Of a stretch of DNA of 64,000 bases, positions 2,920-59,097 are shown one piece after another. The notes beneath the pieces are model-generated. The model searched no databases, was not told the origin of the DNA, and worked only from the letters and a program-made list of their open reading frames with translations. Origin of the DNA: Pseudomonadota bacterium. GTDB lineage: Bacteria; Pseudomonadota; Alphaproteobacteria; JACQOE01. The stretch lies in assembly GCA_016202695.1 (NCBI GenBank), contig JACQOE010000025.1:1-64000 (forward strand). Reading direction: 5' to 3'. Numbering within the stretch: position 1 is the first letter of the stretch; the number at the start of each line of letters is the position of its first letter. The translations under genes and the position numbers were made by a program.

Positions 2920-3004
2920 GCTCCCGCTCCTCTTCCCTGTCCCCGGCGCGCGTTGCGCCCAACTTCAGGGCTGGTCTACGAATCGGGCCGCTTCCCTTCT
3001 TCTC

Positions 3005-3077
3005 GTCACCCCCGCGAAAGCGGGGGTCCATCTCGCGCCCGGAAAGTCTGGATTCCCGCTTGCGCGGGAATGACGAT
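3005..3077. repeat. Composite palindromic repeat between hyuB1 and hyuB2
   Basis: A gtcacccccgcgaaagcggg hairpin is followed by a second hairpin, attcccgcttgcgcgggaat, with tgacgat at the edge. The same two-hairpin architecture appears in the opposite orientation at 20524-20606. It sits in the only sizeable gap of the hyu operon, where it could act as an RNA hairpin that lowers read-through or protects the upstream mRNA. Confidence 0.8.
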
Positions 3078-3121
3078 CAGGGACCGCCGGGCGACGAGCC
3101 TCCGATTCCTTCACCGGGCCC

Positions 3122-4735: not shown

Positions 4736-4768
4736 TTTTCCCGCCTTACCCCGTGCGGAGTGTGCGGA

Positions 4769-6415: not shown

Positions 6416-6424
6416 CCCCGGTCC

Positions 6425-8044: not shown

Positions 8045-8046
8045 CG

Positions 8047-10140: not shown

Positions 10141-10150
10141 GACGCCGATC

Positions 10151-10157
10151 TCCTCCT
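10151..10157 (-). promoter_or_regulatory. Ribosome binding site that fixes the hyuA start
   Basis: On the minus strand AGGAGGA ends 10 bases before the GTG at 10140. This strong Shine-Dalgarno element favours the GTG over the in-frame ATG at 10164, which lies upstream of it. Confidence 0.7.
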
Positions 10158-10164
10158 GCCTCAT

Positions 10165-10623
10165 GGCGTTCGCCCCCGACGACCCCAGGGGCCGCCGTGC
10201 GGGCGGGGCGCGGGTTTGTCGCGCGGATGGATGGGGGTGCGAGCGCCTGGCTCGCATCCCTGCCCGGGAATCAGGGCCGCTTCGAGGGTTTCTGGTGGAA
10301 CCGTTCCCTGGTCCGGGTCGGACATGCCCGCCGCCGCCGATGCCGGCGCATCCCCGCCCCCGGCGGCGGAGGCTCGGGCGCCGTATTAGCCCATCCCCGC
10401 GCCCGGCGCAACCGCCCCGAAGGGGGGGCTGGAGACCCCTCCGGGGCCGGCCCCGGGCGGCGCCTCCGGCCCCCTCAGAGCCTGTTTCGATACTCGTCTC
10501 GGCCGCGACGCCGCCGATTTTGCCCGCTCCGGCAGGAGCCGGTCGTGCCCGAGCATGCTATAAGGCGAACGGCCGCCCCTCCGGGGGAGGGCGCTCGACC
10601 TTCCGCCCTCGGCCTCCCCGCCG
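10165..10623. other. Intergenic region between hyuA and a divergent membrane gene
   Basis: About 460 bases without a convincing gene separate two divergent transcription units, so promoters for both should lie here. The stretch is extremely GC-rich and holds a perfect 16-base palindrome, ccggggccggccccgg, at 10441-10456. I could not recognise a promoter or riboswitch with confidence. Reading frames that cross it are low-complexity shadows. Confidence 0.5.
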
Positions 10624-32256: not shown

Positions 32257-33168
32257 ATGCACGAGCCTGAGCAGGCGCCACCGTTTGAGATCGTGGCGCG
32301 AGAGGATTTCTCGGACGTCACCTACCTTCTCGAAATCCGCCATCCGCTGATGGCGAAGGCGGCCAAGCCGGGCCAGTTCGTGATCGTCATGGCGCACGAG
32401 CACGGCGAGCGCATCCCGCTGACCATCGCCGATTTCGACCGCGACAAGGGCACGATCACGCTCGTCATTCAGGCGGTCGGCAAGACGACCAGGGAAATGC
32501 AGCAGATCTGCCGGGTGGGGACCAGGCTCTATGGCATGGTCGGGCCCATGGGGCTACCCAGCCACCTCGGCGGCGCCAAGAAGGTGGTCTGCGTCGGCGG
32601 CGGCCTCGGGGTGGCGCCGATCTTCCCCCAGGCCCGCGGCTTCAAGGAGAGCGGCGCCTACGTGATCGGGATCGTCGGCTTCCGCAGCAAAAGCCTGATC
32701 TTCTGGGAGAAAAAGTTCCGCTCGGTGTGCGACGAGCTGATCGTCTGCACCGACGACGGCTCGGCCGGCCTCAAGGGGCTCGTCACCCTCGGGATCAAGG
32801 CGGCGATCGACAAGCATTCCGACATCGACGAGGTCGTCGCCATCGGTCCGCCGATCATGATGAAAGCCTGCGCCGAGGCGACCCGCCCGCACAAGATCAA
32901 GACCACGGTCAGCCTCAACCCGGTCATGGTCGACGGGACCGGGATGTGCGGAGGCTGCCGGGTCAAGATCGGCGAGAAGACGATGTTCGCCTGCGTCGAC
33001 GGCCCCGACTTCGACGGCCACAAGGTGGACTTCGACGACCTGATGGCGCGCCTCAAGCGCTACGCCGAGGAGGAGAAGAAAGCGCTTGAGAAGTGGCAGG
33101 AAACCTGCCGTCTGAGTGGCCTGGTGCCGGCCCCGTCGAGGGCTTCGGCGGGCGCACCGCCGGCTTGA
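32257..33168 (+). CDS. NfnA-like FAD/[2Fe-2S] NAD(P)H-ferredoxin oxidoreductase subunit
   Basis: This 303-residue flavoprotein has a ferredoxin-NADP reductase fold: ERIPLTIADFD for FAD, VCVGGGLGVAPIFP for nucleotide, and a C-terminal iron-sulfur loop with Asp227, Cys231, Cys234 and Cys246. One Asp plus three Cys as [2Fe-2S] ligands is a known peculiarity of NfnA. The DGTGMCGGC arrangement here preserves it. Related proteins include the SudB / dihydroorotate dehydrogenase electron-transfer subunit group. It is the first gene of the operon that continues with an NfnB-like gene. The last 30 residues are a low-complexity tail beyond the family length. Confidence 0.85.
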   Translation: MHEPEQAPPFEIVAREDFSDVTYLLEIRHPLMAKAAKPGQFVIVMAHEHGERIPLTIADFDRDKGTITLVIQAVGKTTREMQQICRVGTRLYGMVGPMGLPSHLGGAKKVVCVGGGLGVAPIFPQARGFKESGAYVIGIVGFRSKSLIFWEKKFRSVCDELIVCTDDGSAGLKGLVTLGIKAAIDKHSDIDEVVAIGPPIMMKACAEATRPHKIKTTVSLNPVMVDGTGMCGGCRVKIGEKTMFACVDGPDFDGHKVDFDDLMARLKRYAEEEKKALEKWQETCRLSGLVPAPSRASAGAPPA

Positions 33169-33220: not shown

Positions 33221-34729
33221 ATGATGGCCAAGAAGAAGACCATACGGACCATTCCCCAGGAGCGGACGCCGATCCGCGAGCAGCCGCCGGCGGAGCGGGT
33301 ACGGAACTTCTCCGAGGTGGCCTGCGGATACCGGCTGGAGGACGCCATGCGCGAGGCCGAGCGCTGCCTCCTCTGCCCGGACCCGGCCTGCGTCAAGGGC
33401 TGTCCGGTCAGCATCGACATCCCCGGCTTCATCAGGAAGATCCTCGACAAGGATGCGCGCGGCGCCTACGACGTCATCACCGACACCAACCTCTTGCCCG
33501 CGGTCTGCGGCCGGGTCTGCCCGCAGGAGAACCAGTGTGAGGGCGTCTGCCCGGTGGGCGAGAGCCTGGAGCCGGTTGCCATCGGCCGGCTCGAGCGCTG
33601 GGTCGGCGACACGGCGATCGCCGAGCGCTGGAGCAACCTGCCCTACATCGAGCCCTCCGGCTTCAAGGTCGGCATCGTCGGCTCGGGGCCGGCGGGCATG
33701 GCCTGCGCCGCCGATATGGCCAAGGCGGGATGCGAGGTGATCGTCTATGAGGCCTTCCATCAGCCGGGCGGGGTGCTGAGATACGGCATCCCCGACTTCC
33801 GCCTGCCGAACGAGGTGATCGACGCTGAGGTCGCCAACCTGGTGAAGCTGGGAGTCAAGTTCGAGTGCAACACCCTGGTCGGCCGCCTGTTCACGATCGA
33901 GCAGATGATCGACGAGATGGGCTTCGACGCCGTCTTCATCGGCACCGGCGCCGGGTACCCGAGCTTCATGGGCATTCCCGGCGAGTCCCTCAGCGGGGTG
34001 TTGTCGGCGAACGAGCTCCTGACCCGTTGCAACCTGATGCGCGCGCGTGACTTTCCCAGCTACGACACGCCCCTCGAGCTCGGCCGGCGCGTTGCCGTGA
34101 TCGGCTCCGGGAACACGGCGATGGACGCGATGCGGGTGAGCCTGCGACTCGGCGCCGAGAAGGTGTACTGCATCTACCGGCGCACCCGGGCCGAATGCCC
34201 CGCCCGCGCCGAGGAGATCCACCACGCCGAGGAGGAGGGCATCGAGTTCCATTGGCTGACCACGCCGATCGAGATCCTGGACGACGGCAAGGGCAGCGCC
34301 CGCGGCATGCGCTGCATCCGCATGGAGCTGGGCGAGCCCGACGAGTCGGGCCGGCGGCGCCCCGTCCCGGTGGTGGGGAGCGAGCACGAGTTCGAGTGCG
34401 ACCTGATCGTCTTCGCGATCGGCACCAATGCCAACCCGATCATCGGCCAGACCTCGAAAATCCGGCTCAATCGGTGGGGCTACATCGAGGCGGACGAGAC
34501 TCTCGCCACCTCCATGGCGGGAGTCTTCGCGGGCGGCGACATCGTCACCGGCGCGGCCACCGTGATCGAGGCGATGGGCGCGGGCCGCAAGGCCGCGCGC
34601 AGCATGAAGGCGTATCTCGGCCTGCGCGACACCGACGTCGTCTATCTACCCCCGCGCAAGGGGCAGGAGGGCAAGGCGTTCGGGATCGACCTCGCGGAGC
34701 GGAACTTCGTCCGCGTGCGCGTCGCCTAG
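33221..34729 (+). CDS. NfnB / glutamate synthase small-subunit-like flavoprotein
   Basis: This 502-residue protein has an N-terminal domain holding two [4Fe-4S] cysteine sets, Cys49-x2-52-x4-57-x3-61 and Cys96-x3-100-x5-106-x3-110. A GltD-type FAD domain (GSGPAG at 154-159) and an NAD(P) domain (VIGSGNTAMDAMR) follow. This matches NfnB, the bifurcating subunit, and also the GltD-like partner that couples 2-oxoglutarate oxidoreductase to NADP in some anaerobic aromatic degraders. Start at the paired ATGs 33221/33224 after a ggag element. It lies 52 bases after the nfnA-like gene and 55 before korA. Confidence 0.88.
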   Translation: MMAKKKTIRTIPQERTPIREQPPAERVRNFSEVACGYRLEDAMREAERCLLCPDPACVKGCPVSIDIPGFIRKILDKDARGAYDVITDTNLLPAVCGRVCPQENQCEGVCPVGESLEPVAIGRLERWVGDTAIAERWSNLPYIEPSGFKVGIVGSGPAGMACAADMAKAGCEVIVYEAFHQPGGVLRYGIPDFRLPNEVIDAEVANLVKLGVKFECNTLVGRLFTIEQMIDEMGFDAVFIGTGAGYPSFMGIPGESLSGVLSANELLTRCNLMRARDFPSYDTPLELGRRVAVIGSGNTAMDAMRVSLRLGAEKVYCIYRRTRAECPARAEEIHHAEEEGIEFHWLTTPIEILDDGKGSARGMRCIRMELGEPDESGRRRPVPVVGSEHEFECDLIVFAIGTNANPIIGQTSKIRLNRWGYIEADETLATSMAGVFAGGDIVTGAATVIEAMGAGRKAARSMKAYLGLRDTDVVYLPPRKGQEGKAFGIDLAERNFVRVRVA

Positions 34730-34784: not shown

Positions 34785-36692
34785 ATGGACAACACACTGA
34801 CGATGCAAACCGACGCCGGCACGCGGCGCACGCGCCGCCCGCGGTCGGACGATAAGACGGTGGCGACGCTCAAGGAGCACATCCTCGAGGTCATCAGCGA
34901 CTCGGGCGAGGGCGCACAGCGCTGCGGCCAATCGGTCGCCTCGATCGCGGCGCGGATGGGCAACGGCGTATGGACGGTCGAGATCATACCGGCGGAGATC
35001 CAACCCCCGGCCCGCAGCATCGAAGGAGCGAGCGGAATCCGCATCCGGATCGGCTCGCGGCCGGTCAACAACGGCGGCGACGAGACCGACCTGGTGGTGG
35101 CCTTCAACGAGCAGGTGCTGCTCGGTCGGGTGCGCGCCGGCGAGCTCAAGCGCGGCTGCATCATCCTCCTCGAGAACAAATGGCGGAAGGACCGCGACCC
35201 GAAGATCAGGGACTCCTACGCGCAAGCCTACGACCAGTTCGTCGCCGACGGCTACCGGGTGCACGAGATCCCGATGGAGGAGGAGTGCCTGCGCCACGTG
35301 CCCGATCCGCGGCGGGGCAAGAACATGTTCGCGCTCGGCATGCTCTGCACCCTCTACAGCCTCGATATCGAGCGCGCCCGCGAGCAGGTGGCGTTCGCCT
35401 TCCGCAAGAAGGCGGACCGGGTGGTCGAGTCCAACCTGCGGCTCCTCGATGCGGGCAAGGAGTGGGCCGAGGCCAACCTCGACTTCAAGTTCAAGATCCC
35501 GGCGGTAAAGGCGACCGAGCCCAAGATCGTGGTCAACGGCAACACCGCGCTGGCGCTCGGCATCCTCGCCTCGGGCATGGAGATCTGCGCCATGTATCCG
35601 ATCACGCCCGCCACCTCGGCATCGCATTACCTGAGCGACGTATTCGAAAAGGTGGGCGGCGTGGTCCACCAGGCCGAGGACGAAATCGCCGCCTGCGCCT
35701 TCGCCGTCGGCGCCTCCTATGCCGGCAAATGCGCGGTCACCATCACCTCGGGCCCCGGCCTGTCGCTCAAGCAGGAAGCGATCGGCCTCGCGGTCATGAC
35801 CGAGATCCCGCTGGTCGTGGTCAACGTCCAGCGCGGCGGGCCGAGCACGGGCCAGCCGACGAAGGGCGAGCAGGGAGACCTTCTCGCCGCCTGCTTCGGC
35901 AGCCTCGGCGACGCGCCCAAGGTAGTGATGGCGGCGAGCACCATCGAGGACTGCTTCTACTCGGTGATCACCGCCCGCCGAATCGCCGAGACCTTCAACA
36001 TGGTCGTCGTCGTGCTCTCCGACGCCAACCTCGCCACCGCCCAGCAGCCCTTCCCCCGGCCGCGGTTCGTCGAGGACTGGCTCGCGCCCCCGGTGGACCA
36101 GAGCGCCGTGCCCGAGGGAGCGAAGCCCTACGACTGGGACCCGCTCACCGGCCTCGCCCGCCGCTTCATCCCCGGGCAGCCGAACGGGATGCACACCCTG
36201 ACCGGCCTCGCGCACGACCGCATGAGCCGGGTCGCCTACGATCCCGACATCAACCAGGAGAGCATCCACCGCCGGAGCCTCAAGCTCGCCGCCCTGCAGA
36301 AGACGCTGAAGGCCCCCGCGCTGTTCGGCGACGAGGAGGGCGACCTCCTGGTCATCGGCTGGGGCAGCAGCAAGGGCGCCATCGAGGAGGCCGTCGAGCG
36401 CGTGCGCGCGGAGGGCCACAAGGTGTCGTCGATGCATCTCACGTTTCTTCAGCCCCTGCCGCCCGGCATCGGCGAGGCGATGCGCCGGTTCAAGAAGGTG
36501 ATGACGGTCGAGAGCAACTGGTGCGACGACCCCGCCGACGAGATCGTCGATCAGGAGAACCGCCGTTATTCCGCCCTGGCGATGCTGCTCAGGGCGCGGC
36601 ACTTGGTCGACGTGGACTGCTGGTGCGACGTCCGGGGACAGCCCCTCAAGCCGGAAACCGTCGCCCGGGTGATGCGCGAGAAGCTGGGCTGA
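34785..36692 (+). CDS. korA: 2-oxoacid:acceptor oxidoreductase, fused gamma-alpha subunit (KorA-type)
   Basis: This 635-residue fused subunit has a gamma domain in residues 30-225 (ILEVISDSGEGAQR, later CIILLENKWR) and an alpha domain from about 245. The alpha domain carries YPITPAT (271-277) and GGPSTGQPTKGEQGDL (351-366). This layout and the GGPSTGxPT loop are typical of 2-oxoglutarate:ferredoxin oxidoreductase KorA. It catalyses CoA-dependent oxidative decarboxylation of a 2-oxoacid, or the reverse. It is directly followed after 14 bases by korB. Assignment to 2-oxoglutarate rather than another oxoacid rests on family resemblance. Confidence 0.9.
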   Translation: MDNTLTMQTDAGTRRTRRPRSDDKTVATLKEHILEVISDSGEGAQRCGQSVASIAARMGNGVWTVEIIPAEIQPPARSIEGASGIRIRIGSRPVNNGGDETDLVVAFNEQVLLGRVRAGELKRGCIILLENKWRKDRDPKIRDSYAQAYDQFVADGYRVHEIPMEEECLRHVPDPRRGKNMFALGMLCTLYSLDIERAREQVAFAFRKKADRVVESNLRLLDAGKEWAEANLDFKFKIPAVKATEPKIVVNGNTALALGILASGMEICAMYPITPATSASHYLSDVFEKVGGVVHQAEDEIAACAFAVGASYAGKCAVTITSGPGLSLKQEAIGLAVMTEIPLVVVNVQRGGPSTGQPTKGEQGDLLAACFGSLGDAPKVVMAASTIEDCFYSVITARRIAETFNMVVVVLSDANLATAQQPFPRPRFVEDWLAPPVDQSAVPEGAKPYDWDPLTGLARRFIPGQPNGMHTLTGLAHDRMSRVAYDPDINQESIHRRSLKLAALQKTLKAPALFGDEEGDLLVIGWGSSKGAIEEAVERVRAEGHKVSSMHLTFLQPLPPGIGEAMRRFKKVMTVESNWCDDPADEIVDQENRRYSALAMLLRARHLVDVDCWCDVRGQPLKPETVARVMREKLG

Positions 36693-36706: not shown

Positions 36707-37714
36707 ATGACGATTCCCGCCACCGAGTGGATGTCCGAGATCGACGACGAGCCGCATCTCCTCGAAGCCTATCAGGGCAGCCTTCCCCGCTGGTGCACCG
36801 GCTGCGGCGACAACGCCATCCTCGCCGCGGTCCAGCGGCTTTGCCGCGACGAGGGCTTGACGCCCGAGAAGACCGTGTTCGTCTCCGGGATTGGCTGCTC
36901 GAGCCGATTCCCCCACTACATGAGAACCTACGGCTTTCACGGCATCCACGGCCGCGCCCTGCCCGTTGCCGAAGGCATCAAGATGGCGCGCCCCGACCTC
37001 CACGTCTTCGTCAACACCGGCGACGGCGACTGCTGCAGCATCGGTGCCGCGCACTGGATCCACGCCATCCGCTACAACATGAACATGACCGTGATGCTGC
37101 ACGACAACCATATCTACGGTCTGACCAAGAAGCAGGTGTCGCCGACCTCGCCCCGGGGCCTCAGGAGCAACACCACGCCGCGGGGCGCCTATCTCGAGCC
37201 GTTGAACCCCCTCACCGTCACCCTCGGGGTGACCAACGTCTCGTTCGTGGCCCAGGCGGTCGACTGGATCCCGGAGCTGCTCTACGACATCATCTCCGCC
37301 GCCTTCCACCACAAGGGCCTGTCCTTCGTCCGCATCATCCAGCGCTGCCCGGAGTACCTGCCGAACCTGCTCGATCCGTGGGTGCAGGACCCGATGCGCA
37401 CCCTCCTGCTCACCCACGAGAACGGCATCCAGGTCAGTCCGGGCCTGGCCAAGGTCTACAAGAACCAGGTCCGCCACGACCCCTCCGACCTAAACAAGGC
37501 GCGCGAGGTCGCCTCCGCCGAGGATCCGATCCCCGTCGGCCTCCTCTACTGGAACCCCGCCGTGCCCTGCTACGATGTTATTCGCCAGTCGCCGCAGCTG
37601 CGCACGCCCGACCTGATCCGGGCCGGGCTCGACTCCGAGCTCGACAAGTTCACCATCTGGCCGCAGGACGAGCCGAAGCGCGGACAGGCGCGGCCGCGCG
37701 CCCGCCCCTCTTGA
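36707..37714 (+). CDS. korB: 2-oxoacid:acceptor oxidoreductase beta subunit (KorB-type)
   Basis: This 335-residue thiamine-diphosphate and iron-sulfur subunit has its [4Fe-4S] ligands complete: Cys30-x2-Cys33, Cys64 and Cys214. The TPP-binding stretch starts at GDGD (106-109), followed by DNHIYGLTKKQVSPTS. The unusual pair Cys109-Cys110 follows the GDGD motif where most KorB proteins have small residues. A strong gggaggagg element precedes the ATG. Its position after korA and the intact motifs make it the catalytic partner. Confidence 0.92.
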   Translation: MTIPATEWMSEIDDEPHLLEAYQGSLPRWCTGCGDNAILAAVQRLCRDEGLTPEKTVFVSGIGCSSRFPHYMRTYGFHGIHGRALPVAEGIKMARPDLHVFVNTGDGDCCSIGAAHWIHAIRYNMNMTVMLHDNHIYGLTKKQVSPTSPRGLRSNTTPRGAYLEPLNPLTVTLGVTNVSFVAQAVDWIPELLYDIISAAFHHKGLSFVRIIQRCPEYLPNLLDPWVQDPMRTLLLTHENGIQVSPGLAKVYKNQVRHDPSDLNKAREVASAEDPIPVGLLYWNPAVPCYDVIRQSPQLRTPDLIRAGLDSELDKFTIWPQDEPKRGQARPRARPS

Positions 37715-37762: not shown

Positions 37763-40036
37763 ATGAACCTCGAGCATCTCGATCTTGTCACCTTCCACGT
37801 TACCGGGAGCAGGCCGGCGAGCGGCCTGGACGACGTGGGCAAGCTGACCCTCAAGCCGGCGCTGCTTGCCGGATACCGGGACCTCACCCGGCTCCGCTAC
37901 GACTACCCGCTGGTGCTGGCCGCCGGCGAAACCGGCGAGGAGTGCCTACGCTCCGTCTCCGCCACCATCGACGACGTGCTCAAGCAGGCCGCGCCCGGCG
38001 GCCTCGAAGGCGAGGCCCTGAGGAAACACACGCTGCGGCTCGAGCGCGAGATTCGTTCCCTGGTCGCACAAGGAGCCAAGGCGACGCTCCGCGCACTCTG
38101 GGACCGCGCGGCGCAGGACCTCGCCTCGCGCACCAACGAGCCGGTCGCCGACAACCTGAGCCGCGCCCGCGACGCGCTCACCGTCGACGGAGAGGTCATC
38201 GACTGCGACGCGACGGCGCCGGCCAAGCTGATCACCCACGCCTGGGCGGCCGATCACCGGCGCAAGGCGCGGGCGTTCCTCAAGGACGTGAACACGCTCA
38301 TCGTTCGGCTCACCGACATCCTGCGCGCCGACTACATGAAGTCGTCCGACGCGCGCACCGCCGACCACCTCAAGGCCTCGATCGGAACCTCGCACGCCGA
38401 CGTCTTCGACTTTAAGGCGCTGTCGCGGGTCCTCGCCCGCACCGCGGTCGAGGGCTCGTTGCCCGAGACGCGGCGCGCACGCATCAACTGGGCCCTCTCG
38501 GTCCTCAAATCGCAGCGATTCTATCCCGATCCCGACTGCCGGCCGCAAGGGGAGACGCGGACGGAGCCGCTCTCCTTCACCTTTGAGAGCGGCGCCGCGG
38601 CGCTCGCCGCCTTTCGCGAGCGGCTGCCGCAGATGGTCGAACTCGCCAAGGCGATCTCCATCGCCGAGCTCGAGGTCGAGAATCGTTACCGGGAGGCCAA
38701 GCACGACCCCGTCTTCAGCCATTTCGACGAGGGCGCGCTCGGCCCCAAGGACCTGGCCCTGTTCCCGTCCTATTTGGTCTGTCTGCGGCTGCGGCCCGGG
38801 GATGGCGCCCAAAGCGCGTCTCTGGTCGAGCTCTTGTCCACAGGCCTGCCCGTGAAAGTGCTGGTGCAGATCGATGACATCCTCGAGGGCGCCACGCTCG
38901 CCGAGGGACAATTCGCCTTCGGGGTCAAGAGCCTGCGGCTCGCCACCATGGCGGTCGGCCTGAACAGCGTGTACGTGCTGCAGTCGAGCAGCTCGAACCT
39001 GTTCCAGGTCAGGGATCGCCTGATAAAGGGCATGGCCTATCCCGGGCCGACGCTGTTCAGCGTCTACTCGGGGGCGCTCCTCGGCGCCGCCGACACGATA
39101 CCCTATCTGTCGGCGGCCGCGGCGATGCAGTCGCGTGCCTTCCCCGCTTTCGCCTACGACCCGGGCGCCGGGCCGGACTGGGCCTCGCGCTTTGCCATCG
39201 ACGACAACCCGCAGCCCGACCAGGACTGGCCGGTGCAAGGCTTCTCTTACCAGGACGAGAACCGGCAGCGGGTTGCCGAGGACGTTGCCTTCACCTTCGT
39301 CGACTTCGTCGCCTGCGACGGCCGCCACGCCAGCCACTTCGCGCGCGTCCCGCGCGCCCGCTGGAACGGAGCCATGATCCCCGTCGGCGAGTACCTCGCC
39401 CACCCGCCGGAGCGGGTGCCCGAGAGGGTCCCCTATCTGCTGATGGTCGACGAGAACGACGTTCTTCAGCGGGTGATCGTCGACGACAGGCTGATCCTCG
39501 CCGCGCGCCGCTGCGCCGACATGTGGCACAGCCTGCAGGAGCTGGGCGGCATCCACAACTCGCACGCCCGACGGCTGCTCGAGCGCGAGAAGAAGCGCTG
39601 GGACCAGGAGAAGGAGCGCGAGCTGGCGGCGCTGCGGGCCCGGCCGCAGCCCGCGCCCGCGGCGCGGACTCCCGAGGCCGTCCCGCCCGCGCCGGCGCCC
39701 GCGGCCGAGGCGCGCGCGCCCGAGGGGGCCGCCCCGGCGCCGAAGCCGGCCGCGCCGGCCGCCGCCGAGGCGGCCGAGGAAAAGCCCTCGGACGATCCCT
39801 ACGTCGAGACGCCCCGCTGCACGACCTGCAACGAGTGCACCCAGATCAACCCGAAGATGTTCGCCTATAACGAGAACAAGCAGGCCTACATCGCCGACCC
39901 CGGCGCCGGCACCTATCGGGAGCTGGTCGAGGCCGCCGAGAGCTGCCAAGTCTCCATCATCCACCCGGGCAAGCCGCGGAACCAGAACGAGCCCGGTCTC
40001 GAGGAGCTGATCAAGCGGGCCGAACCCTTCCTTTAG
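37763..40036 (+). CDS. Decayed PFOR-like domain fused to a one-cluster ferredoxin
   Basis: The protein is 757 residues, last gene of the nfn-kor operon. Residues 1-350 are largely helical and match nothing I know. Residues about 353-545 resemble the thiamine region of pyruvate:ferredoxin oxidoreductase: a STGLPVKVLVQIDD strand, AVGLNSVYVLQS, KGMAYPGPTLFSVYSG, and FPAFAYDPG. But the GDGWAYDIG and NTGGQ cofactor motifs are missing, so TPP binding is doubtful. A Pro/Ala-rich linker (625-680) leads to a ferredoxin domain with Cys686-x2-689-x2-692 and Cys728, fitting one [4Fe-4S] cluster. It could be a tethered electron carrier or docking subunit for KorAB or NfnAB. No exact family known to me. 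Confidence 0.75.
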   Translation: MNLEHLDLVTFHVTGSRPASGLDDVGKLTLKPALLAGYRDLTRLRYDYPLVLAAGETGEECLRSVSATIDDVLKQAAPGGLEGEALRKHTLRLEREIRSLVAQGAKATLRALWDRAAQDLASRTNEPVADNLSRARDALTVDGEVIDCDATAPAKLITHAWAADHRRKARAFLKDVNTLIVRLTDILRADYMKSSDARTADHLKASIGTSHADVFDFKALSRVLARTAVEGSLPETRRARINWALSVLKSQRFYPDPDCRPQGETRTEPLSFTFESGAAALAAFRERLPQMVELAKAISIAELEVENRYREAKHDPVFSHFDEGALGPKDLALFPSYLVCLRLRPGDGAQSASLVELLSTGLPVKVLVQIDDILEGATLAEGQFAFGVKSLRLATMAVGLNSVYVLQSSSSNLFQVRDRLIKGMAYPGPTLFSVYSGALLGAADTIPYLSAAAAMQSRAFPAFAYDPGAGPDWASRFAIDDNPQPDQDWPVQGFSYQDENRQRVAEDVAFTFVDFVACDGRHASHFARVPRARWNGAMIPVGEYLAHPPERVPERVPYLLMVDENDVLQRVIVDDRLILAARRCADMWHSLQELGGIHNSHARRLLEREKKRWDQEKERELAALRARPQPAPAARTPEAVPPAPAPAAEARAPEGAAPAPKPAAPAAAEAAEEKPSDDPYVETPRCTTCNECTQINPKMFAYNENKQAYIADPGAGTYRELVEAAESCQVSIIHPGKPRNQNEPGLEELIKRAEPFL

Positions 40037-40366
40037 CCGCCCGCGCCGACGCGGCGGCGCTCCCGCTCTCCTCGCCGACCGCTCTACCCGGCGACACCGC
40101 CCTTCCGCCCCCGCCCGACCGAGCTCCGGGCGGAGGCCTGACCGCCGCCCGGTGCAACCCGACCGCAAGGGCGGGCGAACGGCGGCGCGGCGCCGGCCTC
40201 GCGGCTTGAGCATTGATCGAAATCAATGAATTTTCCCTCGTCCATGGGCACTAAATCGGGGTTCAATGAGGTTCGCGCGAGGCGGGGAGGCGCGACCGGC
40301 TCGTTCAGGCACGTCCGCCCCGGAGGTGCCCGGCACGGGCGCCCACCAGAGGAGAGGCCAGAGAGG
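40037..40366 (+). other. Intergenic region between the two oxidoreductase operons
   Basis: 330 bases. A hairpin at 40036-40058 (GCCGC and CGCG arms, loop CCGA) right after the stop lacks a T-run and is a weak terminator candidate. The FNR box at 40213-40226 lies in the second half. A frame opening at 40226 runs into the next gene but has no family-like residues before 40367. Confidence 0.5.
40213..40226. promoter_or_regulatory. Perfect FNR-type box upstream of the second oxidoreductase operon
   Basis: ttgat-cgaa-atcaa matches TTGAT-N4-ATCAA exactly. It is followed by AT-rich aatgaatttt and lies about 140 bases before the start at 40367. With a near match at 32140-32153 it suggests joint control of both operons by an oxygen-sensing FNR-family activator. 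Confidence 0.8.
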
Positions 40367-40963
40367 ATGTTCCAGACCCGCATCCACGGCCGGGGCGGTC
40401 AGGGGGTGGTGACGGCTGCCGAGCTCCTTTCGGTGGCGGCCTTCATGGAGGGCAAGTACGCCCAGGCCTTCCCGAGCTTCGGATCGGAACGGATGAGCGC
40501 CCCGGTCACCGCCTTCTGCCGCATCGACGAGCGCGAGATTCGGCGCCGTGAGCCGGTCAGCCGGCCCGACGCGCTCATCATCCAGGACCCCACGCTCCTG
40601 CATCAGGTGGACCTGTTCGCCGGCCTCGCCCCCACCGGCTACATCCTGATCAACACCACCCGGACCTTGGCCGAGCTCGGGCTCGACGAGTTCGTCGCCA
40701 ACTTCCCGCCCCGCCACATCGCCACCGTGCCGGCCACCGAACTGGCGCTCAAGCACGTCGGCCGACCGGTGCCAAACGCCGCGCTCCTCGGCGGCTTCGC
40801 GGCCGTCACCGGGCGCATCCGACTCGCCTCGGTCGAAGCCGCGATCCAGGAGAAATTTCCCGGCAAGGTGGGCGAGGGCAACGCCCGCGCCGCGGCCGCC
40901 GCCTACCAAGCGATCCGCGCCGACTTTGAAAAGGAGGGAGTGGCGCATGCTCCAGCAGATTGA
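40367..40963 (+). CDS. 2-oxoacid:acceptor oxidoreductase gamma subunit
   Basis: This 198-residue gamma chain has GRGGQG at residues 8-13, followed by FPSFGSERMSAPVTAFCRID, typical of pyruvate, 2-oxoisovalerate and phenylglyoxylate oxidoreductase gamma subunits. It starts at 40367 after gagagg. The reading frame open from 40226 adds 47 residues unlike the family. The stop lies 17 bases inside the alpha gene, so translation is probably coupled. In contrast to the first operon, gamma is a separate protein here. Confidence 0.9.
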   Translation: MFQTRIHGRGGQGVVTAAELLSVAAFMEGKYAQAFPSFGSERMSAPVTAFCRIDEREIRRREPVSRPDALIIQDPTLLHQVDLFAGLAPTGYILINTTRTLAELGLDEFVANFPPRHIATVPATELALKHVGRPVPNAALLGGFAAVTGRIRLASVEAAIQEKFPGKVGEGNARAAAAAYQAIRADFEKEGVAHAPAD

Positions 40964-42200
40964 GGGCTCGCAGGCGATCGCCCAGGCTGTCGCGCTCTGC
41001 CGGCCGGAGGTGATCTGCGCCTACCCGATAACGCCCCAGACCCACATCGTCGAGGGCCTGAGCGAGATCGTGCGCGAGGGCCGGATCGGCAACTGCCAGT
41101 TCCTCAACGTCGAGTCCGAGTTCGCCGCGCTGTCGGTGGCGATCGGTGCCTCGGCCGCCGGGGCGCGCGCCTACACCGCCACCTCCAGCCAGGGCCTGCT
41201 GTTCATGGCCGAGGCGGTCTACAACGCCGCCGGGCTCGGCCTTCCCATCGTCATGACCATCGGCAACCGCGCGATCGGCGCGCCGATCAACATCTGGAAC
41301 GACCACTCGGACTCGATGTCGATGCGCGATTCCGGCTGGGTGCAGCTCTATGCCGAGACCAACCAGGAGGCCGCCGACCTCCACTTCCAGGCATTCCGGC
41401 TGGCCGAGGAACTGAGCATGCCGGTGATGGTGTGCGTCGACGGCTTCATCCTCACCCACGCCTACGAGCAGGTCGACGTCCCCTCCCAGGCCGAGGTTGA
41501 CGCCTACCTGCCTCCATTCGAGCCGGTGCAGGTGCTCGATCCCGCCGACCCGGTGAGCATCGGCGCGATGGTCGGGCCCGAGGCCTTCTTCGAAGTCCGC
41601 TACCTCGCCCACCACAAGCAGCTGCAGGCGCTCGAGATGATCCCCAGGCTTGCCGGCGCGTTCGCCCGCGCCTTCGGGCGCGAGTCGGGCGGCCTAGTCG
41701 TCCCCTATCGCACCGAGGGGGCGAAAACGGTGATCGTCGCGCTCGGCTCGGTCGTCGGCACGATCAAGGACACGATCGACGAGATGCGTGCCGAGGGCAC
41801 CGAGATCGGCGCCGTTAAGCTCGCCACCTTCCGCCCCTTCCCCCTGGCGGAGCTCCGCGCCGCGCTCATCGAGGCGGAGCGGGTGGTGGTGCTCGAGAAG
41901 GCGCTCGCGGCGGGTCTCGGCGGGATCGCCGCGAGCAACGTGCGCATGGCCCTGCGCGGCCTCTCGACCCCGGTCTACACCGTGATTGCCGGGCTCGGCG
42001 GGCGCGTGATCCCCACCACCTCGCTCAAGCGCGCCTTCGCCGAGGCCCACGCCGATCGCATCGACGACCCCCATTTCCTCGACCTTGACTGGAAGGTGAT
42101 CGACAAGGAGCTGGCCCGCGCCAAGGAGCGGCGGCGCTCGGGCCCGATCGCCGAAAACATCCTGCGCGGTCTCGGCCTGGTCGGGCAGAAGCTGTTCTAG
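40947..42200 (+). CDS. 2-oxoacid:acceptor oxidoreductase alpha subunit (PorA-type)
   Basis: This 417-residue alpha chain has ICAYPITPQT near residues 24-32, NVESEFAALSVAIGASAAG, TSSQGLLFMAE, and INIWNDHSDSMSMRDSGW, which match PorA of four-subunit pyruvate-type enzymes and PadG of phenylglyoxylate oxidoreductase. The ATG at 40947 has aaggaggg 8 bases upstream. It binds substrate and CoA jointly with the beta chain. Pyruvate and arylglyoxylate substrates cannot be told apart from these motifs. Confidence 0.9.
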   Translation: MLQQIEGSQAIAQAVALCRPEVICAYPITPQTHIVEGLSEIVREGRIGNCQFLNVESEFAALSVAIGASAAGARAYTATSSQGLLFMAEAVYNAAGLGLPIVMTIGNRAIGAPINIWNDHSDSMSMRDSGWVQLYAETNQEAADLHFQAFRLAEELSMPVMVCVDGFILTHAYEQVDVPSQAEVDAYLPPFEPVQVLDPADPVSIGAMVGPEAFFEVRYLAHHKQLQALEMIPRLAGAFARAFGRESGGLVVPYRTEGAKTVIVALGSVVGTIKDTIDEMRAEGTEIGAVKLATFRPFPLAELRAALIEAERVVVLEKALAAGLGGIAASNVRMALRGLSTPVYTVIAGLGGRVIPTTSLKRAFAEAHADRIDDPHFLDLDWKVIDKELARAKERRRSGPIAENILRGLGLVGQKLF

Positions 42201-42215
42201 GAGAAAGGGCCAGCG

Positions 42216-43217
42216 ATGACCCAGCGAATCAAGTTCTACCAGACCGGCACCTTCACCGTCGGCAACCGTCTCCTCGATGCCGAGAGGCGCACGGTCCAGG
42301 CGACCGTCGACCGTTCGAACTCCCTCACCTCGGGTCACCGTGCCTGCCAGGGCTGCGGCGAGGCGCTCGGCGCGCGCTATGCGGTCGATGCCGCCATGCG
42401 CGCCGCCAACGGCCAGGTGATCGCCGTCAACGCCACCGGCTGCCTCGAGGTCTTCTCCACCCCCTATCCCGAAACCTCGTGGCAGGTGCCGTGGTTCCAC
42501 TCCCTCTTCGGCAATGCCCCGGCGGTGGCGAGCGGGGTCGCCGCGGCGATGCGGGCGAAGGGGCGCACCGACGTCAGGGTGATCGGCCAGGGCGGCGACG
42601 GCGGCACGGTAGACATCGGCTTCGGCTGCCTCTCGGGCATGTTTGAGAGGAACGACGATGTCCTCTACCTCTGCTACGACAACGAGGCCTACATGAACAC
42701 CGGCGTGCAGCGCTCGGGGCGAACCCCGCCCGGGGCCCGCACGGCTACCACGCCGGCTGTGGGCAACAAGCCGGGCGCCGAGTTCGGTCAGGGCAAGAAC
42801 CCGGCCCTCATCGCCATGGCCCACAATATCCCCTACGTCGCCACCGCCAGCATCGCCGATCTGCATGACCTCGAGGCCAAGGTGACCAAGGCGATGGCAA
42901 TCGAGGGCTCGCGCTACGTCCACATCCACGTGCCCTGCCCGCTCGGCTGGGGCTCGCTGCCGCGCGACACGATGCGGATCGCGCGCCTTGCCGTCGAGAG
43001 CGGGCTCTTCCCGCTGTTCGAGGCCGAGCACGGCGAGGTGACCGACGTGACCCCCATCCGCCGCAAGGTGCCGGTGGACGAGTATCTGAAACCGCAGCGG
43101 CGCTTCGCGCACCTCTTCCGCCAGCCGCCCGACCGCGAGTCCATCTCCGCGATCCAGGCGATCGCCGACCGCAACATCGCCAAGTTCGGGCTTCTGCGCC
43201 AGGAGGGCGAAGTATGA
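42216..43217 (+). CDS. 2-oxoacid:acceptor oxidoreductase beta subunit (PorB-type)
   Basis: This 333-residue TPP/[4Fe-4S] subunit has Cys44-x2-Cys47, Cys76 and Cys241 present as cluster ligands. TPP-binding GDGG (127-130) is followed by FERNDDVLYLCYDNEAYMNTGVQ, the standard cofactor segment of PorB. Gene order gamma-alpha-beta and the intact motifs support an active enzyme. The stop overlaps the next ATG by 4 bases (ATGA). Confidence 0.92.
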   Translation: MTQRIKFYQTGTFTVGNRLLDAERRTVQATVDRSNSLTSGHRACQGCGEALGARYAVDAAMRAANGQVIAVNATGCLEVFSTPYPETSWQVPWFHSLFGNAPAVASGVAAAMRAKGRTDVRVIGQGGDGGTVDIGFGCLSGMFERNDDVLYLCYDNEAYMNTGVQRSGRTPPGARTATTPAVGNKPGAEFGQGKNPALIAMAHNIPYVATASIADLHDLEAKVTKAMAIEGSRYVHIHVPCPLGWGSLPRDTMRIARLAVESGLFPLFEAEHGEVTDVTPIRRKVPVDEYLKPQRRFAHLFRQPPDRESISAIQAIADRNIAKFGLLRQEGEV

Positions 43218-44848
43218 GCATGCCCAAGAGGCCCTTCGCCATCACCCTCGACGTCGGATCCTCGCTCGCTAACCTTACCGGGAGCTGGCGCACCGAGCGG
43301 CCGGTCTACGTCGACCGCCTGCCCCCCTGCAACGCCGCCTGCCCGGCGGGCGAGAACATCCAGGGCTGGCTCTACCACGCCGAGGAGGGCGACTATCACG
43401 CCGCCTGGCAGGTGCTGATGCGCGACAACCCCATGCCGGCCGTGCACGGGCGGGTCTGCTATCACCCCTGCGAGGACAGCTGCAACCGCCGGCAGCTCGA
43501 CGAGCCGGTCAGCATCCACGCGGTCGAGCGCTTCCTCGGCGATCAGGCGATCAGGCACGGCTGGAAGGTCGAGTGCGCGCCCGAGTCCGGCAAGCGCGTG
43601 CTGGTGGTGGGGGCGGGGCCGAGCGGACTCGCGGCCGCCTATCACCTGCGGCGGATGGGCCATGCGGCGGTGATCCACGATGCCGGCCCGCTTCCCGGCG
43701 GCATGATGCGCTTCGGTATCCCCAAGTACCGGCTGCCGCGCGACGTGCTCGACGGCGAGATTCGCCGGATCGAGGAGATGGGGGTGGAGATCCGGCTCAA
43801 TTCCAAGGTCGAGAACCTCGTCGGCCTGATGAATGAGGGAGGTTTCGACGCCGCCTTCGTCGCCGTCGGCGCGCACCTCGCCAGGAGGGTCGACATCCCG
43901 GCCCGCGACGCGGGAAAGATCCTGGACGCGGCCAACGTGCTGCGCGGCATGGAGACGGGCGCGCCGCCGCGGCTCGGACGCCGGGTGGTGATCTACGGCG
44001 GCGGCAACACCGCGCTCGACGTCGCTCGCACGGCCAAGCGGCTGGGGGCGGACGAAGCGCTCATCGTCTACCGGCGCACGCGCGAGCAGATGCCGGCTCA
44101 CGACTTCGAGGTCGAGGAGGCGCTGGAGGAGGGCGTGCTCGTGCGCTGGCTCTCGACCATCAAGCGCATCGATCAGACCACCTTCACCGTCGAGCGGATG
44201 ACCCTCGACGCGACCGGCTGGCCGCAGCCGACCGGCGAGTTCGAGACCCTGGAGGCGGACACCCTGATCCTCGCCCTCGGCCAGGACGTGGACACCAGCT
44301 TCATGCGCGCGATCCCGGGCGTGGTGTTCCGCAAGGACGGGGTGGTCGAGGTGGACCGGAACATGATGACCGGGCACCGCGGTCTGTTCGCCGGTGGCGA
44401 CATGGTCCCCTCGGAGCGGACGGTGACCGTGGCGGTCGGGCACGGCAAGAGGGCGGCCCGCAACATCGACGCATACTTGCGCGGCACCACCCACGAGGCC
44501 CCGCCCAAGCACGAGGTGGTCGCCTTCGAGATGCTGAACACCTGGTACTACACGGACGCCGACAAGATGGTGCAGCCGGCCCTCGACATGATCCGCCGGC
44601 GCACTACCTTTGAGGAAGTGACGGGCGGCCTCGACGAGACCAACGCGCTCTTCGAGGCGCGCCGCTGCCTCTCCTGCGGCAATTGCTTCGAGTGCGACAA
44701 TTGTTACGGGGTCTGCCCCGACAACGCCGTGATCAAGCTCGGGCCGGGCAACCGCTTCCGCTTCAACTACGACTTCTGCAAGGGTTGCGGGCTGTGCGCC
44801 GCCGAATGCCCCTGCGGCGCGATCGTAATGGTGCCCGAAACGATCTGA
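43214..44848 (+). CDS. GltD-like flavoprotein fused to a PorD-type ferredoxin domain
   Basis: This 544-residue fusion has an N-terminal iron-sulfur helper domain (Cys39, Cys43, Cys82, Cys86, Cys90), a GltD-like FAD domain (GAGPSG 133-138) and an NAD(P) domain (VIYGGGNTALDVA). A C-terminal two-cluster ferredoxin follows, with cysteines at 485-501 and 522-534, including CKGCGLCAAECPCGAI. The C-terminal part is what a separate PorD delta subunit normally provides. The fusion therefore joins the ferredoxin subunit of the oxidoreductase to an NAD(P)H dehydrogenase, predicting an NAD(P)-coupled enzyme. It stops one base before the convergent MFS gene stop. Confidence 0.88.
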   Translation: MSMPKRPFAITLDVGSSLANLTGSWRTERPVYVDRLPPCNAACPAGENIQGWLYHAEEGDYHAAWQVLMRDNPMPAVHGRVCYHPCEDSCNRRQLDEPVSIHAVERFLGDQAIRHGWKVECAPESGKRVLVVGAGPSGLAAAYHLRRMGHAAVIHDAGPLPGGMMRFGIPKYRLPRDVLDGEIRRIEEMGVEIRLNSKVENLVGLMNEGGFDAAFVAVGAHLARRVDIPARDAGKILDAANVLRGMETGAPPRLGRRVVIYGGGNTALDVARTAKRLGADEALIVYRRTREQMPAHDFEVEEALEEGVLVRWLSTIKRIDQTTFTVERMTLDATGWPQPTGEFETLEADTLILALGQDVDTSFMRAIPGVVFRKDGVVEVDRNMMTGHRGLFAGGDMVPSERTVTVAVGHGKRAARNIDAYLRGTTHEAPPKHEVVAFEMLNTWYYTDADKMVQPALDMIRRRTTFEEVTGGLDETNALFEARRCLSCGNCFECDNCYGVCPDNAVIKLGPGNRFRFNYDFCKGCGLCAAECPCGAIVMVPETI

Positions 44849-55352: not shown

Positions 55353-56126
55353 ATGAACCGCATCGACCTCAGCGACCGAGTGCTCCTCCGGCTGGTGGCC
55401 GCGGCCGTGCTGGTGCTTACCGTCTATTTCGCGCTGCTCCCTGCCCTGCCGCAAGCGTTCCGGCTGCCGGGAAGCGCGCCCCTGCATATCGCCGGGGTGA
55501 TCGGCTCGAGCCTCCTCCTCGTCTCAGTCGCCTTCGTCGCGGCAAAGCGGAGCGGCCGCGGCGGCCCGCCGCCTGCCTGGTTCGTCGCCCACGCGGTCTG
55601 CGCGGTTGCGGGCTTCGCCCTAGTCGCCGCCCATTCCGCCGGGCGGCTCCGCCATGCCCCGGCTCTGCTCCTCCTCGCTCTCGTCGCGCTCGCCGCGCTC
55701 GGGGTGTGGGCGCGGGTGCGTCTTTCCCGCCGGCTTGCGGCGACCTTTGCCACCAGGCGCGCCCTCCTCGATCCGCCCGCCCCGCAGGCGCGCGGGAGCC
55801 TCGCCGCCCTCATCGCCGAGAAGGAGGCGCTTCTGCGTCGCCTCGATCCGGGCGCGCGCGAGGCGACGTTCTCGCCAACCCTCGGCCACTGGCTTCGCGC
55901 CCCCGCGCTCGCGTACCGGTACGCACGGCTCGCCCGCGCCGAGGCGGGCGTGATCGGAACGCGCCAGGCGGCCGGCCTTGCGCTCGGGTACTGGCGCGCG
56001 GTTCACATCGCGCTTGCCTGGCTGTTCGTCGCCGGCCTCGTCGTCCACATCGTCACCGTTACCTTCTTCGCCGGCTACGTGGCCGGCGGCGGGGAGGTCT
56101 ACTGGTGGCACCTCGCCGCCTGGTGA
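55353..56126 (+). CDS. Putative diheme membrane cytochrome b subunit
   Basis: This 257-residue integral membrane protein has about six hydrophobic segments. Two pairs of histidines sit 14 positions apart: His80/His94 and His218/His232, each pair inside helices. That H-x13-H spacing is the pattern of ferric-reductase/cytochrome b561-type diheme helices. It begins divergent from the GNAT remnant, and its stop is 38 bases before the iron-sulfur/molybdopterin gene, so it is the likely membrane quinone-oxidising or quinone-reducing anchor of that enzyme. No exact family is recognised. Confidence 0.6.
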   Translation: MNRIDLSDRVLLRLVAAAVLVLTVYFALLPALPQAFRLPGSAPLHIAGVIGSSLLLVSVAFVAAKRSGRGGPPPAWFVAHAVCAVAGFALVAAHSAGRLRHAPALLLLALVALAALGVWARVRLSRRLAATFATRRALLDPPAPQARGSLAALIAEKEALLRRLDPGAREATFSPTLGHWLRAPALAYRYARLARAEAGVIGTRQAAGLALGYWRAVHIALAWLFVAGLVVHIVTVTFFAGYVAGGGEVYWWHLAAW

Positions 56127-56163
56127 TGCGGCGGGCGCGCCGCGCCACCGGTGGGGAGGAGCG

Positions 56164-59097
56164 ATGAGCCGGCTCGCCCTGATGATCGACCTCGAGCGCT
56201 GCACCGGCTGCAAGAGCTGCGAGGCGGCCTGCAAGCAGGAGCATCGCCTCGGCCCCGGCGAGTTCCGCACCCGGGTGGTCTGGCTAGGGCGCGAGGACGA
56301 GGCCGGGCTGGACTTCCTCACCCTCACCTGCCAGCACTGCGAGCGTCCGGCCTGCCTCCGGGCCTGCCCGGTCAACCCCAAGGCGATCAGCAAAGATCCC
56401 GCGACCGGGGTGGTGCGCGTGCACGAGGATCGCTGCACCGGCTGCGGCGAGTGCGTGATCGCCTGCCCCTACGGCGCCATGGGCTTCGACTCGCACGGGC
56501 ACCACGCGGTGAAATGCGACCTCTGCGCCGACCGGCGCGCCGAGGGCGGCATTCCGGCCTGCGCCGCGGCCTGCCCCGGCTATGCCATCTCCTTCGGCGA
56601 GCGCGAGGCGCTGTTGGACCGGGCCCGCGTCGAGGGGCGCCGGCCCCGCGAGACCGATCCCTTCCTCCTCGGCCCGGCAACCGTTTACCTTGAGCGCCTC
56701 CGTCCCGCCCCGACGTCCGCCGACGGTCGCGCCCCGGCCCGCCCCCCCGCGGTGGTGAACCCGCCGGACGCGCAGGCGGCCCTGTCGCGCGCCGCGCCCG
56801 CCTTTCCCTTCCGCAGCCCGCGCGAGGAGGCGACGCCCGACCGCACGGTTCCGGGCGGCTGCACCCTCTGCTTCAACTGCTGCACGGTGAAGTTCCACTT
56901 CCGCGGCGACCGCCTCGTCCAGGTCACCGGCAACGAGGACGACCCGGTGCTCAAGGGCAAGGTCTGCCCTAAGTCACAGATGACACTGCAGATGTATCAC
57001 AGCCGCGAGCGCCTAACCCGGCCGCTCAAGCGCATCGGCGAGCGGGGCGAGGGCCGCTTCGCGCCCGTCTCGTGGGAGCAGGCGCTCGAAGAGATCGCCG
57101 AGCGGCTGGTCGCGGTCCGCGAGCGCTTCGGGCCGGAGGCGCTGGCTCTCTTCGTCGGCACGCGCACCGGGATCATCGCCAAGCAGGGCTACGCCCGCCT
57201 CTTCGCCCAGCTCTGGGGCACCCCCAACATCGAGGGGACCGACCCCTTCTGCTCCAGCGGCAAGGCCATCGCCTACCGGCTCGTCCAGGGCTCGGTCGGC
57301 TCGGGCAACAGCTACACCGAGGCCGACCTCGGGGGCGCCCGGCTCTACCTCTACATCGGCGACAATCAGGCCGAAACCCGACCGGTCTTCTTCGGCCTGA
57401 TCAACGACTGGCGGCTCAGGCACGGAGCGCGGATGATCGCCGTCGATCCGCGCCTCACCGTGACCGCGAGCAAGGCCGACCGATGGCTCCCCATCCGCCC
57501 GGGTACCGACATGGCGCTCGCGCTCGCGGCCGCCTATCACATCCTCGACAAGGGGCTCAACGACGCCCGCTTCTGCGTGGACTGGGTCCTCGGCTGGGAG
57601 CGCTGGCGCGATTTCATCTTCGCCAAGGGTTATACCCCCGAGTGGGCCGAGCCGATCACCGGCATCCCGGCCGGCGAGATCCGCACCCTCGCCGAGGAGA
57701 TCGCCCGCGCCGGGGGCTGCGTGCTCTTCGCCAGCCGCGGGGTCAACCAGCACACCAACTCGGTGCAGACGAACCGCGCCCTCATGTTCCTCGCTGCGAT
57801 CACCGGCAACTGGGGCCGGCGGGGCGGAGCCTTCGTCAACATGACCGCCTCGCCCCCGCTGGCGGCGAACGCGCCCCCGGGGCGGCGGGCGAAGATCGCG
57901 CGCCCGCGCGTCCGCAAGAGCCCGACCGGCTGGATCGAGGCCATGCGCACCGGCCGCCCCTACCCGATCCGGGCGATGATCTCGTGCAACAACCCGCTCG
58001 CCCAATGGCCGGGGTTGGCGGCGGCGCGCGAGGCTTTCCGTGCCCTCGACCTCGTCGTCCACATCGAGCTTTTCGCCAACGAGACCTCGGCCTTCGCCGA
58101 CTACGTGCTGCCGGCGGCGGCCGGGATCGAGGCGGGCGACATCGGCCGCTCGGCCGACGACCGCCGGATCGTGTGGATCGACCGGATGACCGACCCGCCC
58201 GGCGAGGCCCGGCCGGACGCCTGGATCTGGGTCGAGCTCGCGAAGCGCCTCGGGTTCTCGGACGTGCTCAAGGAGGACTACAAGGACCCCGCCCGCTTCT
58301 GGGACGAGGTCATGATCGACAACGAACAGTTTCGCGGCATCACCCAGCGGCGCCTGCACGCGGTTCCCTACCGCTGGGTGCGCTTTCCCGCGGCGAGCGA
58401 AGACGCGCCCGAGATCGAAACCCTCTATCTCGAGGGAAACACGGCGCCGGGCCAGCCCGCGGGCAAGCGGTTTCCCACCCCGAGCGGGAAGCTCGAGTTC
58501 TGGACCGACGCGCAGGAGGCCGACTTCGCCGCACTCGGGCTTTCCGCGCTTCCCGAATTCTACGGCGAGCGCGAGGGACTTCTCGATCTGCCCTTCGTCG
58601 TGCGCGAGGAGGGCGACGAGCGCCTTTCCCTCCTCTCGCCCTTCGAGAAGGTGCCGACCGGGGCCGCGCGGGCGCGGGTCGTTCCGCCCGCCGAGGACGC
58701 GCCGGCCGCGCGGCTTCGCGCCCAGGGCTTCGACAGCGAGCTCGTGACGGGGCGTCCACCCGCGCCGCATTTCCACTCCTGGACGCACTATTTCTGGCAG
58801 GCGCAGGAGATGTGGCCCGATCTCTACTGCCAGATCCACCCCGAGCGGGCGGCCGCGCTGGGCGTGAAGGACGGCGAACGGGTGCGGATCGAGACCGCCC
58901 ACGGCGCGATCGAGGCGCGGGCCTGGATTCACGCCGGCATCCGCCCAACGGCGGTGTTCGTCCCCATCGGCTGGGGCGAGCGCCAACCCTTCCATCCCTG
59001 GCGCTCGGTCAACTTCCTGACCGACCCCTCCCAGCGCGATCCGATCTCGGACCAGACCAACCTCAAGAGCCTGCTTTGCCGCGTGCGCAAAGCCTGA
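56164..59097 (+). CDS. Fused four-cluster ferredoxin and molybdopterin oxidoreductase
   Basis: This 977-residue fusion starts with a DmsB/NrfC-type domain with sixteen cysteines in four [4Fe-4S] sets (Cys13-16-19-23, 56-59-64-68, 91-94-97-101, 118-121-133-137). After a Pro/Ala linker (180-225) comes a DMSO-reductase-family catalytic chain: FS0 cluster Cys233-x2-236-x3-240-x27-268, a candidate Mo ligand Cys363 in DPFCSSGK, and the C-terminal MGD-binding domain. The two subunits are normally separate proteins. No Tat signal is present, so it is probably cytoplasmic. Substrate is unknown. The frame opens at 55978, but that part overlaps the cytochrome gene in another frame. Confidence 0.88.
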   Translation: MSRLALMIDLERCTGCKSCEAACKQEHRLGPGEFRTRVVWLGREDEAGLDFLTLTCQHCERPACLRACPVNPKAISKDPATGVVRVHEDRCTGCGECVIACPYGAMGFDSHGHHAVKCDLCADRRAEGGIPACAAACPGYAISFGEREALLDRARVEGRRPRETDPFLLGPATVYLERLRPAPTSADGRAPARPPAVVNPPDAQAALSRAAPAFPFRSPREEATPDRTVPGGCTLCFNCCTVKFHFRGDRLVQVTGNEDDPVLKGKVCPKSQMTLQMYHSRERLTRPLKRIGERGEGRFAPVSWEQALEEIAERLVAVRERFGPEALALFVGTRTGIIAKQGYARLFAQLWGTPNIEGTDPFCSSGKAIAYRLVQGSVGSGNSYTEADLGGARLYLYIGDNQAETRPVFFGLINDWRLRHGARMIAVDPRLTVTASKADRWLPIRPGTDMALALAAAYHILDKGLNDARFCVDWVLGWERWRDFIFAKGYTPEWAEPITGIPAGEIRTLAEEIARAGGCVLFASRGVNQHTNSVQTNRALMFLAAITGNWGRRGGAFVNMTASPPLAANAPPGRRAKIARPRVRKSPTGWIEAMRTGRPYPIRAMISCNNPLAQWPGLAAAREAFRALDLVVHIELFANETSAFADYVLPAAAGIEAGDIGRSADDRRIVWIDRMTDPPGEARPDAWIWVELAKRLGFSDVLKEDYKDPARFWDEVMIDNEQFRGITQRRLHAVPYRWVRFPAASEDAPEIETLYLEGNTAPGQPAGKRFPTPSGKLEFWTDAQEADFAALGLSALPEFYGEREGLLDLPFVVREEGDERLSLLSPFEKVPTGAARARVVPPAEDAPAARLRAQGFDSELVTGRPPAPHFHSWTHYFWQAQEMWPDLYCQIHPERAAALGVKDGERVRIETAHGAIEARAWIHAGIRPTAVFVPIGWGERQPFHPWRSVNFLTDPSQRDPISDQTNLKSLLCRVRKA

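Follow-up and report, generated by a model that had tools for sequence, protein, structure and literature searches.

The window, by which we mean the whole stretch of 64,000 nucleotides that was analysed, carries an operon of five genes, nfnA-nfnB-korA-korB-X, with gaps of 14-55 bp between them.

32257..33168 (+): nfnA-like gene, 303 aa, PRK06222, DHODB-type electron-transfer subunit
33221..34729 (+): nfnB/GltA-like gene, 502 aa, Fer4_20 and FAD/NADPH domain
34785..36692 (+): korA, 635 aa, fused gamma-alpha subunit of a two-subunit 2-oxoacid:ferredoxin oxidoreductase (OFOR)
36707..37714 (+): korB, 335 aa, beta subunit, CxxC and GDG thiamine motif intact
37763..40036 (+): gene X, 757 aa from ATG to stop, degenerate C-terminal half of a pyruvate:ferredoxin oxidoreductase (PFOR), linker and ferredoxin

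The first-pass annotation had described X as the last gene of a KorAB operon, and family assignments and gene order confirmed this, but nfnAB had been overlooked as members. The nfnA-like product matched NCBIfam NF004862 (E 5.6e-114) and Pfam DHODB_Fe-S_bind, and the nfnB product matched TIGR01316 (E 6e-175) and the large subunit of NfnI (PDB 5jca, E 7e-149). KorA matched TIGR03710 above cut-off and the Magnetococcus OGOR (6n2n_A, E 2e-82), while KorB matched TPP_enzyme_C, TIGR02177, 5b48_B (E 6e-51) and 6n2n_B (E 7e-49). Both subunits group with two-subunit OFORs, and the closest solved structures are Magnetococcus OGOR 6n2n and Sulfolobus StOFOR; the equivalog-level matches of KorAB were below cut-off, which counts against fixing the substrate. 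Since KorB keeps CxxC and GDG, the catalytic partner of X looks intact.

A separate OFOR unit lies at 40226-44848 of the window, about 330 bp after X if porG starts at its likely internal ATG. It consists of porG-porA-porB and then a gene in which an NAD(P)H:acceptor oxidoreductase (PRK12771 type, GltD) is fused to a PorD two-cluster ferredoxin. The window also holds a cluster of three consecutive hydantoinase B/oxoprolinase-type genes with one hydantoinase A gene (1300-10257, minus strand), and a large ORF in which a Fer4_11 dicluster domain is joined to a molybdopterin oxidoreductase (55978-59097, plus strand).

Domains of X and their relation to PFOR

The GC content of the X reading frame by codon position was 0.70/0.48/0.91, which is a strong coding signal. 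The protein was divided as follows.

37790..38143 (+): residues ~10-127, weak likeness to the helical insert in domain V of long PFORs, with neither cluster motif left
38186..39592 (+): residues 142-610, PFOR domain VI in degenerate form with the region after it, without TPP or cluster ligands
38798..38806 (+): residues 346-348, a chance 'GDG', missing there in relatives by the motif table
39626..39793 (+): residues 622-677, Pro/Ala-rich linker, variable, predicted disordered
39794..40033 (+): residues 678-757, ferredoxin domain, single [4Fe-4S], Cys686, 689, 692 and 728

The only Pfam match in X was Fer4_13 (residues 682-734, E 8e-7, above cut-off); domains I-III (POR_N, PFOR_II, POR) gave no Pfam match, and the PorD/KorD delta-subunit model TIGR02179 of NCBIfam did not match either. 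Together with the ORF translation, the Fer4_13 match verified the earlier description of a Pro/Ala linker followed by a one-cluster ferredoxin with Cys686-689-692 and Cys728. In the AlphaFold2 (AF2) model of the whole protein, pLDDT fell below 50 at linker residues 628-674, and the ferredoxin domain matched the structure of Desulfovibrio africanus FdI (1fxr) with a TMt of 0.83. A single-sequence PDB search with X returned hits for the ferredoxin end only, D. africanus FdI again among them.

A profile built from close relatives of X alone gave nothing convincing, and long PFORs had to be added. Residues 142-622 then aligned with the long-PFOR group by hhalign with P=100% and E=1.6e-51 over 436 columns, and the stretch 142-597 shares its ancestry with the C-terminal half of a long PFOR in which the same ferredoxin forms the end. 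The first AF2 model, of whole X, had a pLDDT of 72.9 and Moorella PFOR as its best PDB match; a deeper model of residues 142-622 reached a pLDDT of 84.7 and a pTM of 0.81, and Moorella PFOR was again the top PDB match (Foldseek, E 2e-6). Whole-chain TM-scores between X and PFOR were low (0.33-0.35), so the fold match is convincing for the core and not for every added element. Profile-profile and fold comparison thus both returned a PFOR without TPP ligands, structure prediction gave no different fold, and the proposal that the middle third of X resembles the C-terminal region of PFOR was borne out. The statement that the first 350 residues match nothing did not hold, because residues 142-350 align with PFOR by profile. 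Residues ~10-127 weakly resemble, in a joint alignment, the helical insert between the two domain V cluster motifs, and N-terminal profile matches of 15-24 bits were obtained in four long PFORs (L018, L072, L075 and L089). By the same alignment, X lacks about 120 PFOR residues, among them the second domain V cluster motif.

The first reading had missed that this tethered ferredoxin also occurs on active PFORs. These proteins of 1650-1720 aa, found on genome contigs of Gemmatimonadota (L012), Planctomycetota (L132/L134) and others (L017, L018, L072, L074 and L075), have this linker and Fer4_13 ferredoxin at their C-terminus, with 52% mean identity in the ferredoxin, and their C-terminal half is homologous to X. 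They have domains I-VI, GDG, NTGGQ and all cluster ligands intact in full-length frames, whereas X keeps none of these. Classical PFORs (D. africanus 1kek, Moorella 6cin) have the domain VI fold in common with X, but X lacks their other catalytic domains, the ligands of all three clusters and of TPP, and adds a tethered ferredoxin.

Lost ligands, selection and linkage with korAB

TPP motifs did not prove to be conserved in close homologues: the TPP/Mg motifs GDG and NTGGQ were present in 0/16 X sequences covering the region and in 15/15 active long PFORs. The four proximal [4Fe-4S] cluster cysteines (CxGCGE, NxTGC and YxxC motifs) were lost in 16/16 X, and the cysteine motifs of the two [4Fe-4S] clusters of domain V were deleted in 16/16; all 15 active PFORs kept both sets. 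It had been claimed that X has no GDG or NTGGQ, and in the literal sense this was wrong for GDG, which occurs at residues 346-348. We rejected this triplet as a TPP motif because it is absent there in relatives and no NTGGQ-like motif follows downstream, so the functional statement that X has no thiamine site stands.

The four ferredoxin cysteines (C-x2-C-x2-C...C) were kept in every X with the region in frame, and the ferredoxin is the most conserved part of the protein, with a mean pairwise identity in the family of 75% compared with 46-54% for the body and 39% for the linker. Two pairs of relatives gave dN/dS values of 0.29 and 0.25, which means purifying selection, and the reading frame is intact in more than 15 divergent genomes. 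Selection, conservation and the retained ferredoxin ligands indicate, at the level of sequence, that X is a maintained non-catalytic protein and not a decaying gene.

In all 20 genomes in which the upstream side of X could be read (G000, G449-G455, G458, G461, G464, G490, G504, G521, G554, G642, G716, G839, G870 and G911), korB was the next gene upstream, and 13 of the 20 had the order nfnB-korA-korB-X. To test the linkage without bias, we looked for KorA across 64 genomes from a single (Rhodocyclaceae-type) family. It was found at 72-80% identity in six, all six with X, and the next best KorA was just 38% identical; in G449, a seventh X genome among the 64, the contig ends inside korB. Among 385 genomes of the window's own class, KorA with at least 68% identity occurred in four, each with nfnB-korA-korB-X. 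The gene is thus accompanied by korAB wherever the genomic context is readable. The deeper X genes of G461, G554 and G642 have no NfnAB beside them, so NfnAB is not a universal partner of X.

Most relatives come from metagenome-assembled genomes (MAGs), and the operon is found again in a MAG of Aromatoleum (L054/L133). The record label Bordetella parapertussis of L005 is evidently wrong, since the genome was drawn within the Rhodocyclaceae-type family. Viral contigs held no relative, the viral structure library gave no match, and plasmids gave two long-PFOR-type partial matches only. Single stop-free stretches in L068 and L078 looked like KorB-X fusions, but korB and X are read in different frames there, and we discarded them. 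In G554, a single-contig genome, korA appears split into three reading frames (L123:11653-13500, minus strand), probably by indel errors, which may also have cut X off from its ferredoxin. A separate ferredoxin ORF of this genome was left out as evidence because the apparently broken korA makes such errors likely. A 177-aa C-terminal X end in a Gemmatimonadetes MAG (L010:6980-7513), without korAB nearby, is probably an assembly fragment.

All X sequences formed one clade with 100/100 support in an unrooted tree, and an active PFOR-ferredoxin gene stands beside korAB in Gemmatimonadota (L012) and Planctomycetota (L132, L134). The sequences are best explained if a PFOR already bearing the tethered ferredoxin gave rise to X with its C-terminal half. 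The unrooted tree allows a history, without proving its direction, in which an operon of KorAB and PFOR-ferredoxin would have lost catalysis in the PFOR part and retained the tethered carrier. Between korB and the active PFOR-ferredoxin gene of the Gemmatimonadota contig, a gene for an RnfB-type FeS domain with Fer4 clusters was seen (L012:2736-3587, plus strand). Downstream of X, at least two genomes encode a second PFOR, of almost full length, that has lost the thiamine motifs. The one in G554 (L123:2809-7446, minus strand) is a 1546-aa protein that keeps the two domain V [4Fe-4S] motifs, and the one in Planctomycetota (L014:8084-12181, plus strand) is a 1366-aa protein that has lost the domain V motifs as well.

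Possible role of X beside KorAB

The intramolecular ferredoxin, domain V, is absent from two-subunit OFORs, which have a single cluster close to the surface (PMC5020499). KorAB, as an enzyme of this kind, comes without such a domain. X keeps a ferredoxin and always stands beside korAB, so it is probably the built-in electron shuttle of this enzyme. On the whole, we think it likely that X is a non-catalytic electron-transfer and docking subunit of the neighbouring two-subunit KorAB, in line with the first-pass idea of a scaffold that bears a tethered carrier, although linkage of the genes is by itself no proof that the products touch. Stable binding of a [4Fe-4S] ferredoxin has been described for both OGOR and PFOR of Aquifex, and with OGOR the exchange of electrons was measured as well (PMC10052474).

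In the mechanism that we propose, KorAB would oxidise a 2-oxoacid with thiamine and the one [4Fe-4S] cluster in KorB, and the most likely substrate is 2-oxoglutarate, converted to succinyl-CoA. The dead thiamine-domain fold of X may serve as the dock on KorAB, and its tethered [4Fe-4S] ferredoxin would take electrons from KorB and hand them to NfnAB within the reach of a linker of about 55 disordered residues. Its place in the operon makes NfnAB the likely acceptor, which would form NADPH, so that the sum would be 2-oxoglutarate + CoA + NADP+ -> succinyl-CoA + CO2 + NADPH. Much more tentatively, KorAB, X and NfnAB might be joined in a stable 2-oxoglutarate:NADP(H) supercomplex, with a PFOR-derived pseudoenzyme as both scaffold and swinging-arm carrier; such a complex would have evolved from an arrangement of KorAB with an active PFOR-ferredoxin.

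Domain VII, the C-terminal part of PFOR, protects the Desulfovibrio enzyme from oxygen, and by this analogy X could be a protective or regulatory cap, its dead PFOR fold shielding the KorAB cluster from oxygen and its ferredoxin acting as a redox sensor. Relatives do come from lineages in which facultative or aerobic members are common (Xanthobacteraceae, Rhodocyclaceae-type). However, the better conservation of the ferredoxin than of the rest fits electron transfer better than a cap, and the same tethered ferredoxin is found on active PFORs of other phyla, so we regard the cap as unlikely. An enzyme with different chemistry in the former thiamine pocket seems to us less probable still. About 80 columns are invariant across 13 Pseudomonadota-type X sequences and some are specific to X, such as a D-C-D motif at residues ~147-149, but this motif is lost in the deep members L014, L078 and L071, no known catalytic motif of TPP enzymes is kept, and no cofactor site in X was recognised by Pfam, NCBIfam or PDB profiles. 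A functionless, decaying PFOR remnant would account for the loss of domains I-IV and all active-site residues, yet we give it hardly any weight, as it is already refuted by the selection and conservation results (frames intact in divergent genomes, dN/dS of ~0.25-0.3, strong linkage, ferredoxin ligands kept).

As an electron-transfer subunit, X would differ from known systems. The described two-subunit OFORs of the same kind as KorAB (Sulfolobus StOFOR 5b46/5b48, Magnetococcus OGOR 6n2n) use free ferredoxin, and none has a dead-PFOR partner. The delta subunits PorD/KorD/OorD of four-subunit OFORs presumably have a common role with X as a dedicated ferredoxin-type subunit, but they are small two-cluster ferredoxins of another family, while X has one cluster and a PFOR-derived body of ~620 residues. 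The overall reaction proposed for KorAB-X-NfnAB is the same as that of the 2-oxoglutarate:NADP+ oxidoreductase of Azoarcus evansii, which Ebenau-Jehle and co-workers in 2003 reportedly described with only KorA, KorB and a flavin subunit, and no X. The body of X is covered by no Pfam or NCBIfam model, so at best the ferredoxin end will allow such genes to be recognised. We found no description of the X family in the open-access literature, in agreement with the first-pass annotation, which knew of no family with this architecture.

In anaerobic and microaerobic metabolism, low-potential electrons pass through 2-oxoacid:ferredoxin oxidoreductases, and the ferredoxin that belongs to a given enzyme is usually hard to tell. 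If the proposed role of X is true, a dedicated, tethered carrier made out of an inactive sister enzyme would identify the partner of a whole KorAB subfamily. It would also link this subfamily to NfnAB and NADPH, and would provide a clear-cut example of a pseudoenzyme within central carbon metabolism.
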